Shown here in pieces: positions 5,867 through 20,008 of a stretch of 64,000 nucleotides of DNA. Within the stretch, counting starts at the first letter, position 1; every line of letters starts with the position of its first letter. The notes beneath the pieces are model-generated. The model was not told the origin of the DNA. It searched no databases and saw only the letters and a program-made list of their open reading frames with translations. The position numbers and the translations under genes are program-made. Source of the stretch: Nematocida parisii ERTm1 (Eukaryota; Microsporidia); contig NW_013524646.1 in the NCBI RefSeq assembly GCF_000250985.1, positions 407,913 to 471,912 on the forward strand. Direction: 5' to 3'.

Positions 5867-6742
5867 TTATAGTGGGGAGGTTGGAAGAGTGTCTTCATAC
5901 ACTTCTGGTTCTACTTTTCTTGTGTGCTGGAATTTAAGCCCGTCTCCCTGAGTGGTCCAGCTCGGTATAAACCACATATACCAGGACTCGCCCATAATTA
6001 TTTTCCAGTTTTGGTAGTACCCCATATCATAAGATATATTTGTGTTTTCAACAGGGTGCTTTCTCTCCTGGGGTGTTTGATTAATGCATATTGAATATAT
6101 ACACTCGCCCAAGAAATACGCTGTAAAAATAATTACTACTACTTGTAGAGACAGAGCTACAGTTATTGCTGCAATTTCTTTTTTCTCTGATAAGCTAATT
6201 AATAAAGAGTGAATAAAGCATCCAAAACTAATTAGATTCATTAGCATGAGGTAAAATAAGAAAACAACATAGAACTTATAATTGGTGAATCCAATGCATA
6301 AGTCGCACCATGTGAGGTGTTTATACATAAGAAGTAAGCACTGATGGCACTTGTCGCAATGATAACTACGCAGTGGCTGGGATGTATTGCATTTCTCACA
6401 TGTGTTCATTTCATGCTTGTATGCAAACATATACTCCTTTTCAAAGGGGTTAATACAAAGACTGCTGTCATCTGAATCCCCGTCTCTCTCAACAGCCTCT
6501 GGGAAGAGCTCATGCGTTGTGCAGTTCTTTGAGATAGACATTCTTAAGAATGAAAACCCTACTAGAAGAACTAGTGCTTGATATACAACAAATATACAAA
6601 GCACTGTAATAGATACTTCTTTGAGCATCTGTAGTGCATATATTGTATTATACGCAAAAAATATGTATATTCCACTGAATATGACTAATACTCGTTGTAT
6701 TGCATACCATATTGTCTGCACTGCATTTTTGTATTCGAACAT
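5867..6742 (-). CDS. DHHC-family membrane protein with degenerate catalytic motif (likely pseudo-palmitoyltransferase)
   Basis: A protein of 291 residues with four hydrophobic segments arranged two before and two after a Cys-rich domain, as in DHHC S-acyltransferases. Zinc-ligand positions are kept: Cys115, Cys118, His128, Cys129, Cys132, Cys135 and Cys149, with the Gly-Phe-Thr-Asn-Tyr-Lys-Phe-Tyr stretch that normally follows. The Asp-His-His-Cys signature itself reads Tyr140-Lys-His-Leu143, so the acyl-accepting Cys and the Asp/His that activate it are absent while the structural His is kept. Either it is a non-catalytic scaffold or chemistry uses another Cys such as Cys146. Divergent from the AN1 gene, with only 30 bp between start codons. 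Confidence 0.85.
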   Translation of the reverse strand: MFEYKNAVQTIWYAIQRVLVIFSGIYIFFAYNTIYALQMLKEVSITVLCIFVVYQALVLLVGFSFLRMSISKNCTTHELFPEAVERDGDSDDSSLCINPFEKEYMFAYKHEMNTCEKCNTSQPLRSYHCDKCHQCLLLMYKHLTWCDLCIGFTNYKFYVVFLFYLMLMNLISFGCFIHSLLISLSEKKEIAAITVALSLQVVVIIFTAYFLGECIYSICINQTPQERKHPVENTNISYDMGYYQNWKIIMGESWYMWFIPSWTTQGDGLKFQHTRKVEPEVYEDTLPTSPL

Positions 6743-6772
6743 AAATTAACCAAACAATTCGTTTTTTTATCC

Positions 6773-7051
6773 ATGAACAGTGTTCAGTCACGGAAAAGAA
6801 AGCTTCACAACGATGAAGATGTAAAAAAACAAGAAATAATTAAGTACGGAGTAAAACCAGGCGAGTGCTCATATTGCAGTGCACGCCTACGTATAACAAA
6901 CACATTTGGGTGTAAGTGCAAAAGAATATTCTGTGCCAAACACAGATACTCAGACGAGCACCGCTGTTCGTATGACTATAAAACAGAGAATATGATAAGA
7001 CTAGAGAAAGAGAATCCAAGGATTGTTCCATCTAGAATATCAAATGCATGA
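6773..7051 (+). CDS. AN1-type zinc finger protein
   Basis: A 92-residue protein. A complete AN1 finger occupies residues 32-65: C32-x2-C35-x11-C47-x-C49-x4-C54-x2-H57-x5-H63-x-C65. The N-terminus is basic (Arg-Lys-Arg-Lys) and the C-terminus is short. AN1 proteins bind ubiquitin, p97/Cdc48 or the proteasome in stress responses, but the partner here is unknown. The ATG at 6773 is chosen because the upstream extension overlaps the divergent DHHC gene. Its stop overlaps the next gene's start by 8 bp. Confidence 0.75.
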   Translation: MNSVQSRKRKLHNDEDVKKQEIIKYGVKPGECSYCSARLRITNTFGCKCKRIFCAKHRYSDEHRCSYDYKTENMIRLEKENPRIVPSRISNA

Positions 7052-8646: not shown

Positions 8647-9777
8647 ATGGATAATAAAGACAGTTGGAGTATAGAACCTGATACACCTGGCCCAGTCCAT
8701 GCGACAGAACAAATATTCACAGACCAAAATATATTCAGTTCTTCAGGTTATACTAAAGCATATCCCACTGTTAAAGAAGAAAACTTAATTGATTTATCAT
8801 ATTCAGAAACTATTCCAACCGACGATTCTTTAAATTTTATCCTAAATAGTTCATTATTCAATGAATCATCACTAAAAGGAAACTTATCCACAGTCGGATC
8901 ACAAGATGAAATTCCCAAACAAGAAAGCATAAATTTAGATGAAGCCCAAGCTGCATTCTGGAATTTTGTACGCAACTTTAAAAAAACAATGGATCGTATA
9001 CTTAACTTACAAAAGATTAGTATAGAAGCCAGAACCAGTATACAACAGCACATGCTTAAATGTGAAGAAATTTTCAGTATACGCCCTGGGGTGTTAGGTA
9101 TAATAATTTCAATTATTCTATTACTCATGGGAGAACTATTAGTATACATTATATTTAAAATGAAAAATCCAATTCTAATCGGGTTAGGTGCTGGTGTAGT
9201 AATAAGATACTTATGCGTTAAAAAAACGAAAGATCCGTATGTTATAGGATTAGGTATTTCTATGGTGGGGTGTTCTATTATATTTAGCTTGTTCAATATA
9301 ATCAGGTATATTTTCATAGGATTGTACTTAATTATACTGATTAATTGGGTTGAATCAGCTAAGGTTAAATTGTACTTATCCGATGCGCTGATACTTTCTG
9401 CAATGATTATATCAAATGTATCAATTGGTTTTTTAAGTATTTGGATAGAAAACTCTGCTAGTAGTTGGTTCTTTTTTCTTTCTCTTTGCATTATGTCAAC
9501 ATTAGTTCTTATATTTAATGCTGGTATGATAAAATACGTATTTAACTGGTTAAAAGAAGTATTTGTAGAAGAAACGAGTGAAACCAGTCAAAACGACACA
9601 GAAGAGAGCCTGGAATCAGTTGATACAACAAAAAGTCAAGTCAGATTAATAGATATATTTAATTTCTCAAAAGAGTGGATATGTGTGCTTACTGCTGCTG
9701 GGTTTATTACGAGTGGAGTAGTCGTATGCAAATATATTTTAACAAAAAATTCACGAATATTACGTATTATTAGCTAA
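8647..9777 (+). CDS. Unknown seven-segment membrane protein with acidic N-terminal domain
   Basis: A 376-residue protein that I do not recognise. About 110 soluble acidic residues rich in Ser, Asn, Asp and Glu come first, then a short amphipathic stretch with a Phe-Lys-Lys-Thr-Met-Asp motif. Roughly seven hydrophobic segments follow from residue 145 to the C-terminus, with a charged Ser/Thr/Glu-rich loop near residues 310-335 before the last one. The gene stands apart, with 262 bp and 316 bp of AT-rich flank, which is generous for this window. The frame is certain from its length, starting ATG and sensible membrane topology; the function is unknown and possibly lineage-specific. Confidence 0.7.
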   Translation: MDNKDSWSIEPDTPGPVHATEQIFTDQNIFSSSGYTKAYPTVKEENLIDLSYSETIPTDDSLNFILNSSLFNESSLKGNLSTVGSQDEIPKQESINLDEAQAAFWNFVRNFKKTMDRILNLQKISIEARTSIQQHMLKCEEIFSIRPGVLGIIISIILLLMGELLVYIIFKMKNPILIGLGAGVVIRYLCVKKTKDPYVIGLGISMVGCSIIFSLFNIIRYIFIGLYLIILINWVESAKVKLYLSDALILSAMIISNVSIGFLSIWIENSASSWFFFLSLCIMSTLVLIFNAGMIKYVFNWLKEVFVEETSETSQNDTEESLESVDTTKSQVRLIDIFNFSKEWICVLTAAGFITSGVVVCKYILTKNSRILRIIS

Positions 9778-16913: not shown

Positions 16914-16967
16914 TGCCCGGGCTGTGGCTGAGTGCACGTATTTTTAATTTTGCGTTTTAAAACTTTT

Positions 16968-19900
16968 ATGGAGACGCCAGGAAGTATTATATTTCTGCCG
17001 CTGTATATTTATTACACAGTGACAGATGATGGACCGCAAGTGCACATGCAGGGAAAGACAGAAAGTGGAGAAGAGGTTGAGTGCACAGTATCTGGCCATT
17101 TGCACTATTTCTACATAAGCAAAGTGCCAGGAGAAATAATTAATGAGGAATCACTTAAGAAAGTGCATAAAGAGATAGTTAAAATCAGCACAGTAATTAA
17201 GTCTAATATATACGGATATTCAGAGGGAGAGAATGAGTACTACCAAATATATGTAAGAACACCTAAATTAATTCAGTCAGTGTGCACAGCAGTAAAAGAG
17301 CACTTTATTAGAATAGACAGAACGCATGAGCCCAGGAACGTATTCGAGACAAACATAGGATATATTATTAGATTTATGGTAGATACAGGTTTAGTTGGAA
17401 TGGGGTATGTAGAAGTGCTCCCAGAAACACAAGAACATAAAAACAACAAGCTACTTCTTACAGCAGACAGTACGAAAATATCTCCAAATAAGTCGGTGGT
17501 AAAGCTGCCCCCAATTAAAATACTTAGTTTGGACATAGAGTGTATAGGAGAGGACAATAAATTCCCAACACCACAGCACGATCCAGTTGTGCAAATAGGG
17601 AATGCAGTGGCAGTCTATCCAAGCCCAGTCATTATTGAAAAGGTCCTTTTCTGCACAAGGCCCACTAATCCCATACCGGGTGTTACTATTTTTTCGTTCA
17701 TGGATGAGAAAGAAATGCTTACTGCGTGGTCGCAGTGGGTTTCAGCACTTAACCCAGATGTGCTCACAGGGTACAACATAACACAGTTTGACATGCCGTA
17801 TCTGCTAAACAGGGCCAAGGCACTTGGACTGACAAAATTCAAATATTTCTCCAGAACAGACGAACCGGCAGAGACAACGCAGGGACTGTTTAAACAAGAT
17901 TCAAATAATTCTAATAAAAATGGGGATGCAAAGAACAGCACTTCTAATGAACAGAAGAGTGGATTTACAGCACCCGCCCTCCTGGTAGTGCCGGGCCGGC
18001 TAGTATTTGATATGCTGGATATCGTGAAAAAGGAGTTTAAACTGCACAGCTACTCACTGAACGCAGTTAGTTCTGTTTTTCTGGGTGAGCAAAAGGAAGA
18101 TGTGCACTACACGCAGATAAAGCCACTGTATAATGGGACAGATGAAACAAGGAAGAGGCTCGGCGTGTACTGTCTTAAGGATACTTATTTACCCATTAGA
18201 ATTATGTACACAAAAAATCTGTTCATTAATTACTGCGAGCTTGCACGGGTAACGGGTGTTCCAGTAGAGTTTTTGGTAAACCGGGGGCAGGGTATTAGAG
18301 TACTCTCACAGCTGCTTAGGCAGGCAAAGAAATATAATTATATTCTGCCGGTGATTATAGGGGCAGAGGAGACGTATGAGGGTGGATACGTAATGGAACC
18401 AAACAGAGGGTTTTACAGTAATCCAGTGGTAGTTCTTGATTATGCATCTCTGTACCCATCTATTATTATGGCGTACAATCTCTGCTACACAACTCTTCTT
18501 AGTAAAGAGCAAGTGGCGCACATGGATAAGGACGACTACACAGAGTCCCCCACTGGAGATTATTTCCTGCGCAGAGAAAAGAAGCCAGGACTGCTCCCAG
18601 TCATTCTTACCAGCTTATTAGAGGGAAGAAAGCCGTGCGTGCAGAGCTTAAGAACACAAAAGATCCCGAACTAAAAGCATCATTAAACGCAAGACAGCTG
18701 GCATTGAAGGTATCCGCTAATTCTGTATACGGATTTACGGGTGCCTCTAAGACAGGACTTCCATGCATACCGATATCTAGGAGTGTAACAGGGTTTGGAA
18801 GAGAAATACTGAAAAAAACAAAAGAGCTAGTAGAGAATAATTACAACAAAGGAGAAAGAGTGCACAGTTCCACGGCTGAAGAAGAAAATCAAGAAATAGT
18901 AGAAATAAAAAAGAAAGCCCCGTGGAATTTATTTGTAGCGTATGGTGATACAGATTCAGTTATGGTCACACAGCCAGGCCTTACAATAGAACAGGCCTTT
19001 CAAGTGGGAGAAGAAATATCTGAGTTTGTATCTTCTAGGCTGCCCAGTCCACTAACGCTAGAATTTGAGAAGGTTTACCACCCGTTTGTGCTTATAAATA
19101 AAAAAAGGTATGCGGGCTGCACAAAAACATCGGCAAAGGATCCCGGGCGGATTGACACAAAGGGAATTGAGACAGTGCGGAGAGACAACTGCCTGCTTGT
19201 ACGAGATCTAATGAAAGAGTGCATAAACAAAGTATTCCTAGAGGGCGATGTCGACGGAACAAGAAAGCTTATAAAAAGCCGAGTGAATGAGCTTCTGAGT
19301 AATAGAATAGGTATTAGTCAGCTGATCATTACAAAGTCAATCGCAAAACAAGGCGAAGATTACTCCGTCTCTCTTGCGCACGTAGCTCTTGCAGAGAGGA
19401 TGAAGAAAAGAGAGGGCACAGGACCAGGCCGCGGTGACAGAGTGCCGTATGTTATTATCCAAGGAAAGGGACCATTGCATGAAAGGAGTGAAGATCCCGT
19501 CTATGCACTAAAAAATAATCTACCAATTGATACGCTGTACTACCTAAAGAACCAGCTCACTAAGCCGCTTGAGAGACTTCTATCATACGTAATCAAGGAC
19601 ATACTTGACATCCTTAACCCACCAGCTAACTATATAATGGGCGTAGGAGCAAACAATAAAGTAAGAGAAATGCCCAAGGGGATAGCTGCATTCTTTAAAA
19701 AGAAGAAGACGTGCGTAATTTGCAGGTCAGGGATCTATCCAGTCTGTAAAGTGTGTGATAAATCGTATCCAGCAGTGCTTAGGCAGACGTATGAAGTACT
19801 CTTCGGGTTACAGTGTGCATACCACCTAATCATGAGAGAGTGCCAGGACATGCAAGATTCAAGGCATACCCCCATTGTGTGCAGTAACAGAGACTGCCCC

Positions 19901-20008
19901 GTTTATTACATAAGAATAGAAATGCTTAAAGAAATTGAAGAAGTACAAATTAGGTATAATCAGTTATTGGAACACAAACAAAAAATACCAGAAATCATTC
20001 CTGAGTAA
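16968..20008 (+). CDS. POL3: DNA polymerase delta catalytic subunit, interrupted by a -1 frame change
   Basis: Family B polymerase. Exonuclease motifs: Asp-Ile-Glu near residue 189, Asn-Ile-Thr-Gln-Phe-Asp-Met-Pro-Tyr, and Tyr-Cys-Leu-Lys-Asp. Polymerase motif A is Asp-Tyr-Ala-Ser-Leu-Tyr-Pro-Ser near residue 491; motif B (Asn-Ser-Val-Tyr-Gly) and motif C (Tyr-Gly-Asp-Thr-Asp-Ser) follow. The first frame runs 16968 to a TAA at 18672-18674. The conserved continuation lies in the -1 frame from about 18632, between motifs A and B, so one base appears missing near 18629-18632. The joined product would be about 1,010 residues, near family length. In the C-terminal CysB site the second Cys is Met. 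The ATG at 16968 is the first one consistent with the family. Confidence 0.9.
18626..18635 (+). other. Frame-change site within POL3
   Basis: The upstream frame reads GAG GGA AGA AAG, then leaves alignment. The downstream frame reads GCC GTG CGT GCA starting by re-using the G at 18632. The splice Glu-Gly-Arg-Lys | Ala-Val-Arg-Ala-Glu-Leu-Lys fits the delta family without a gap. The A run at 18629-18631 or the single G at 18632 is the likely place of a lost base. Confidence 0.75.

Follow-up and report, generated by a model that had tools for sequence, protein, structure and literature searches.

A putative pseudoenzyme group among the DHHC S-acyltransferases of Nematocida

DHHC S-acyltransferases act in two steps, in which the cysteine of the Asp-His-His-Cys (DHHC) motif carries the acyl group; in DHHC20, it is activated by the Asp and the first His of the motif (PMC8059564). 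Asp153, His154 and Cys156 are the catalytic residues of DHHC20 (PMC8059564; PMC10622425), and its second motif histidine, His155, binds zinc (PMC10622425). Natural departures from the motif, which read DHYC or DQHC, are found in yeast Akr1, Akr2 and Pfa5, T. cruzi TcPAT1, Giardia gla_8711 and human DHHC13, and the DHYC of Akr1 has been described as functional (PMC8107437; PMC5967602; PMC4109852). In the laboratory, Cys-to-Ser (DHHS) mutants have yielded structures that keep the fold, namely hDHHS20 (7khm), with bound palmitoyl-CoA (coenzyme A), and DHHC15 (6bms), which is catalytically inactive (PMC8059564). Here we describe a gene from a 64,000-nucleotide stretch of the genome of the nematode-infecting microsporidian Nematocida parisii ERTm1 (NW_013524646.1, positions 407,913 to 471,912; 'the window' in the following, with positions counted from its first letter), which encodes a DHHC-family membrane protein whose motif reads Tyr-Lys-His-Leu. 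From comparisons of its sequence with those of its relatives, we consider it probable that this protein, referred to as pseudo-DHHC (P0001), is a pseudoenzyme of the S-acyltransferase family that has been retained as a non-catalytic adaptor or regulator. Among the matches listed for titles and abstract openings in the open-licence literature, none described a DHHC protein without the Asp and Cys of the motif, although we claim no priority; in the main text of PMC4109852, Nematocida appears once, in a dataset list.

Loss of the catalytic motif and retention of the fold

An earlier note, made from the window alone, had pointed out Tyr140-Lys-His-Leu143 at the place of the catalytic motif in an unbroken reading frame, and both the residues and the frame are as it described (Table 1). 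The note gave no strand; the gene lies on the minus strand. The protein matches the DHHC profile PF01529 with E = 8.4e-19 and 68.4 bits, above the Pfam cut-off of 28.7, and thus belongs to this fold. Its frame has a codon-bias score of 0.118, somewhat under the 18 comparison genes in the window (0.143–0.341), and the other five frames all score negative.

Orthologs were collected by a protein search with P0001 and then with an alignment of its matches. The resulting family has 20 members (P0001–P0020) scoring between 302 and 519 bits, after which the next match, P0021, falls to 55 bits; all 20 match PF01529 at E values up to 0.01. Because such searches reach only relatives with shared five-residue words and similar length, finding no orthologs beyond these 20 and the relative P0128 (see below) is no proof of absence. 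Besides P0001, eight orthologs carry organism names, all of them Nematocida (ausubeli, major, minor, displodere, homosporus, AWRm77, AWRm80 and LUAm3); out of the eight named Nematocida species in the taxonomy, N. ironsii and N. ciargi are absent from the names among the matches. The predicted proteins are 238–315 amino acids long. The sole N-terminally short one, P0010 (238 amino acids; Nematocida sp. AWRm80), begins at the equivalent of Met68, without the first transmembrane segment (TM1) and nearly all of TM2, which is probably an error in the start of the gene model.

The motif follows the pattern [YFVI][KR]H[LS] in 20/20 members: position 140 is Tyr in 14, Phe in three, Val in two and Ile in one, position 141 is Lys in 16 and Arg in four and hence always basic, position 142 is always His, and position 143 is Leu in 13 and Ser in seven, including P0018–P0020. 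No member retains the catalytic Asp and Cys, be it as DHHC or as DHYC/DQHC. The earlier note had named the roles of the DHHC20 residues and proposed that exactly the catalytic ones were lost and the structural His kept; the cited literature agrees with these roles, and the proposal holds throughout the family. A sequencing error at residues 140–143 is excluded by the comparable motifs of orthologs that come from other genomes. Two positions outside these four residues have changed as well. That of DHHC20 Lys151 is Leu or Met in all 20 orthologs, whereas 109 of 122 DHHC proteins outside the family have Lys or Arg there, and that of His140 is not His in 19 of the 20 versus His in 76 of 83. All of the 122 other proteins read DHHC, which does not amount to a survey, since the motif was itself part of the search words that yielded 119 of them.

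Also as claimed before, the putative zinc-binding residues and the Gly-Phe-Thr-Asn-Tyr-Lys-Phe-Tyr segment at the entry of TM3 are present. The eight predicted ligands of two zinc ions in the cysteine-rich domain (CRD), read off the alignment at positions that we take to be the ligand set in DHHC20 numbering, are invariant in all orthologs and in all 104 rows of alignment A5; given 43 invariant among 279 usable positions, finding 8/8 ligands invariant has a hypergeometric P of 1.8e-7 (relatedness ignored). Arg125 and Asp147 are likewise invariant, and position 144 is highly variable, with 11 different residues in 20 sequences. The predicted architecture is that of the family, with four transmembrane segments and the CRD between TM2 and TM3, and the Asn of the PaCCT motif (Asn266 in DHHC20) is found in all members as Asn245. 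An AlphaFold2 (AF2) model, computed from an alignment that includes 84 DHHC-bearing proteins, matches the fold of the DHHS20-palmitoyl-CoA structure, with fold alignments to human ZDHHC20 and zebrafish ZDHHC15 at 17–20% identity; an earlier model from 12 sequences was poor (predicted local distance difference test score, pLDDT, 50.7) and was set aside. The best PDB profile matches are DHHC20 and DHHC15, and by similarity, the family appears nearest to the ZDHHC2/15/20 type. Seven of the 20 orthologs bear the source name 'palmitoyltransferase ZDHHC2/15/20' and thereby an activity that the sequence does not support.

No cysteine outside the eight zinc ligands is invariant, the best being Cys74 (15/20), and of the histidines around the former active site, only the zinc ligand His142 is invariant. 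With all three catalytic residues (Asp, first His and Cys) lost and no other nucleophile common to the family, we take pseudo-DHHC as likely dead with respect to acyl-cysteine chemistry.

Intact paralogs, conservation and an intact sister

A profile search of the genome (G000; 3.98 Mb in 11 contigs), in which the best six-frame candidates were scored and counts are therefore lower bounds, gave at least three PF01529 genes: pseudo-DHHC, P0022 (L001; 276 amino acids) and P0023 (L002; 225 amino acids). The latter two both read Met-Asp-His-His-Cys, so that intact S-acylation enzymes coexist with pseudo-DHHC; the earlier note had looked to a second, intact DHHC gene as support for a division of labour, and there are two. 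The closest solved structure to P0023 is yeast ERF2 (E = 4.4e-17), and that to P0022 is DHHC20, with ZDHHC9 near behind; an N. minor relative of P0022 (62% identical) is named ZDHHC3/7/25. On contig 8, we observed an Erf4-like protein of 122 amino acids (P0143; L004:1465-1833), which scores 28.6 bits against PF10256, just under the cut-off of 29.3. It is perhaps the partner of the Erf2-like P0023, and the genome thus probably encodes an Erf2/Erf4 pair beside pseudo-DHHC. The acyl-protein thioesterase profile PF02230 gave no match in the genome, while the same search matched in 10 of 14 control genomes.

The intact paralogs offer a measure of how well the family is conserved. Among eight species or isolates with both genes (seven from named sources and that of the window), 22 of 28 pairs have a higher identity in pseudo-DHHC than in the P0022 family, or 15 of 21 when the seven pairs with P0010 are left out; compared with the P0023 family, for which four species were available, this is the case in 6/6 pairs. 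By region, identity is higher than in the P0022 family in TM2 (63.1 vs 39.6%), TM3 (55.7 vs 47.2%), the segment from TTxE to PaCCT (64.4 vs 55.9%) and the tail (66.4 vs 39.9%), and equal in TM4 (31.0 vs 31.5%). These comparisons suggest that the fold is about as well preserved as that of working enzymes and that, judged by its proteins, the family may be under purifying selection. The earlier note's view that the gene is not decaying stands at this level, where both pairwise identity and invariant positions speak against neutral decay.

Among the proteins obtained in the search with the paralogs, one with an intact motif stands close to the family. P0128 (311 amino acids, from a 1655-base contig) scores 150.4 bits against the family profile, with the next non-member at 109.9. 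It shares with the family the Asn-Pro-Phe (NPF) before the CRD, which no other of the 122 proteins has, Asp147, which is otherwise seen only in P0059, as well as PaCCT and the GDG tail; unlike the family, it retains the full motif, as Lys-Met-Asp-His-His-Cys, together with Thr-Thr-Ile-Glu. In a 61-row tree, it is the sister of all 20 orthologs (support 99/98), and in a 33-row tree, from which residues 136–148 were left out, of the ten included (96/96). Its source may be a lineage close to Nematocida. If this placement holds, the simplest account is a P0128-like ancestor with an intact DHHC motif, whose Asp, His and Cys were lost on the long stem (1.27 to 1.49 changes per column) to the 20 orthologs. 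NPF and Asp147 would then be older than the loss, because P0128 already has both. The distribution of Leu and Ser at position 143 requires three changes on the tree. As Ser143 is found in P0018–P0020, which split first in the 61-row tree (the 33-row tree does not settle this), and in two further pairs, the loss of the motif likely, though not certainly, passed through a Ser stage resembling the DHHS mutants made in the laboratory.

Interpretation and alternative explanations

That all orthologs lack the catalytic residues and the relative P0128 has them is what would be expected of a pseudoenzyme, and the family can thus be viewed as a putative pseudoenzyme branch of the DHHC family. On this interpretation, pseudo-DHHC would form no acyl-cysteine intermediate and would act as an adaptor in the membrane, bound to client proteins, acyl-CoA or an intact DHHC enzyme (ZDHHC3/7-like or Erf2-like), and thereby influence the localization or regulation of S-acylation. 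Acyl-CoA is a candidate partner in view of the invariant Arg125 and the always-basic position 141; others are the two intact DHHC proteins or an NPF reader. A more specific scenario, to which we give as much credence as doubt, is that one of at least three DHHC proteins in the genome gave up catalysis, perhaps via a Ser (DHHS-like) stage, and became a membrane subunit with a zinc-held fold, whose binding partner would be acyl-CoA, a client or one of the intact DHHC proteins.

Several observations weigh against this interpretation. First, the loss of a single motif residue does not prove inactivity, as mutants of yeast proteins illustrate: Swf1 and Pfa4 remain partly active when the DHHC Cys is replaced by Arg (Gonzalez Montoro 2015, cited in PMC8107437), and autoacylation of Erf2 persists when Ala replaces its first His, albeit without acyl transfer to Ras2 (cited in PMC8059564). 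Second, conservation is uneven. In six of the 28 pairs, all with N. displodere, N. homosporus or AWRm77, identity is below that of the P0022 family, as it is in the CRD (69.3 vs 77.9%), in the TM2-CRD loop (57.7 vs 70.0%, the latter from few aligned letters) and in TM1 (43.7 vs 49.2%); the four-residue TM3-TM4 loop is also lower (8.1 vs 29.5%). Such a mixture would be compatible with relaxed constraint on the catalytic core in a protein whose remainder is still in use. Third, P0128 is only 27–32% identical to family members, sits on a long branch (1.46 and 1.34) and is flagged for unusual letter make-up in the 61-row tree. Finally, two pieces of evidence count for less than they seem to: as the AF2 input alignment holds DHHC-bearing proteins, the model speaks for compatibility with the fold and not for zinc binding, and the second Thr of TTxE, which is absent in 20/20 orthologs, also varies in active DHHC proteins (Thr in 17 of 83), so that its loss was discounted as weak evidence.

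The main rival to an adaptor is an enzyme that transfers acyl groups without passing through an acyl-cysteine, in that acyl-CoA is held in the cavity, perhaps with its phosphates bound by Lys/Arg141 and Arg125, and is attacked directly by the substrate thiol. The Swf1 and Pfa4 mutants would be precedents, and the conserved basic residues and the match to the palmitoyl-CoA-bound structure are compatible with it; however, not only the Cys but also the Asp, the Lys151 position and the first His have changed, and the only invariant His nearby is the zinc ligand. Moreover, mutation of the first His abolished the acylation of Ras by Erf2, and mutation of Asp-His in Akr2 abolished both autoacylation and substrate acylation (PMC8107437). 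We therefore regard cysteine-independent transfer as rather unlikely.

Alternatively, the protein might have a non-catalytic job unrelated to S-acylation, for instance as a trafficking adaptor that uses its invariant NPF loop. NPF is a ligand of EH domains, and its position behind an acidic and Ser-containing stretch, together with its rarity before the CRD elsewhere, would suit such a role. Its presence in the motif-intact P0128 implies, however, that it did not arise with the loss, and since it lies at the N-terminal end of a predicted helix (residues 99–109; AF2 pLDDT there only ~63–74), it may be structural. Profiles of the potential NPF readers EH (PF12763) and SHD1 (PF03983) gave no match in the genome, which says little because no control genome matched either. 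Overall, this explanation appears quite improbable.

It is very unlikely that another nucleophile has taken over from Cys156. The earlier note had suggested Cys146 as acceptor, and Ser143 or another nearby cysteine could be considered as well; Ser143 does occur in seven orthologs and Cys146 in six, but 13 of the 20 have Leu143, 14 have no Cys146 and all invariant cysteines are zinc ligands, and a shared mechanism cannot rest on a residue that most members lack. The suggestion of Cys146 is thus not upheld, and neither is Ser143 as a general nucleophile; Lys141 is an unlikely acyl acceptor, given the Arg in four orthologs. Least probable of all is a dying gene that has lost its motif and is drifting elsewhere, for which the variable position 144, the low codon-bias score and the less conserved CRD could be cited, but which is hard to reconcile with 20 orthologs predicted as proteins, their invariant positions including all zinc ligands, and an identity that mostly exceeds that of an intact paralog.

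Neighbouring genes and comparison with known systems

The start codons of pseudo-DHHC and of a gene for an AN1-type zinc-finger protein (PF01428, E = 1.5e-8), which lie head to head, are separated by 30 bases (window 6742-6773), and their promoters are therefore shared or overlap the genes. A 376-amino-acid protein with several hydrophobic stretches, encoded at 8647-9777, has no Pfam match at E <= 0.001. The gene for the catalytic subunit of DNA polymerase delta is split over two overlapping frames (stop-to-stop, 16932-18674 and 18530-20008), of which the first covers the exonuclease domain and runs into DNA_pol_B, and the second contains further DNA_pol_B and zf-C4pol; this broken frame in an essential gene may reflect an assembly error, an intron or frameshifting.

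Table 1. Positions of pseudo-DHHC, its motifs and other genes in the window
Feature	Position	Strand	Details
Pseudo-DHHC membrane protein gene (P0001)	5867..6742	-	291 amino acids, ATG start, no internal stop
PaCCT-type C-terminal segment and GDG tail, residues 245-268	5939..6010	-	N245, W246, G251, W254, W257, P260, G266, G268 in 20/20 orthologs; position 267 D in 16, N in 4
TTxE equivalent, residues 223-226	6065..6076	-	Thr-Pro-Gln-Glu; T223 19/20, E226 20/20; second Thr replaced by P, L, I or Q in 20/20
Gly-Phe-Thr-Asn-Tyr-Lys-Phe-Tyr, residues 151-158	6269..6292	-	TM3 entry; F152, Y155, K156, F157 20/20; G151 17/20, N154 19/20
CRD, residues 115-149	6296..6400	-	Eight predicted zinc ligands: C115, C118, H128, C129, C132, C135, H142, C149
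Cys146, acceptor candidate of the earlier note	6305..6307	-	Cys in 6/20; otherwise Phe, Leu, Val or Ala
Former catalytic motif, residues 140-143	6314..6325	-	Tyr-Lys-His-Leu for Asp-His-His-Cys; codons TAT AAA CAC CTC
Asn-Pro-Phe, residues 98-100	6443..6451	-	TM2-CRD loop, behind acidic/Ser stretch; 20/20 orthologs
AN1-type zinc-finger gene	6773-7051		Head to head with pseudo-DHHC
Protein of 376 amino acids	8647-9777	+	Several hydrophobic stretches
DNA polymerase delta catalytic subunit	16968-20008	+	Split over two overlapping frames

If our interpretation is correct, these proteins constitute a natural pseudo-palmitoyltransferase clade, which could show what the DHHC fold does beyond catalysis. 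Asp, His and Cys were dropped together while the fold was held, in a genome in which only three DHHC genes were found (a lower bound), and the sister of the family has retained the complete motif. The family thus provides a natural test for a job of the DHHC fold apart from catalysis, and equally for the claim that some DHHC proteins act without the Cys.

Among the known systems, human ZDHHC20 and zebrafish ZDHHC15 differ from the family at the positions of Asp153, His154, Cys156 and Lys151 (20/20 each) and of His140 (19/20). The natural DHYC and DQHC variants keep the Asp and the Cys, whereas pseudo-DHHC lacks the Asp, the first His and the Cys. The Ser found naturally at the Cys position in seven of the 20 orthologs has a parallel in the laboratory DHHS mutants; these, however, are single proteins that keep the Asp and the first His, both of which are lost throughout the pseudo-DHHC family.
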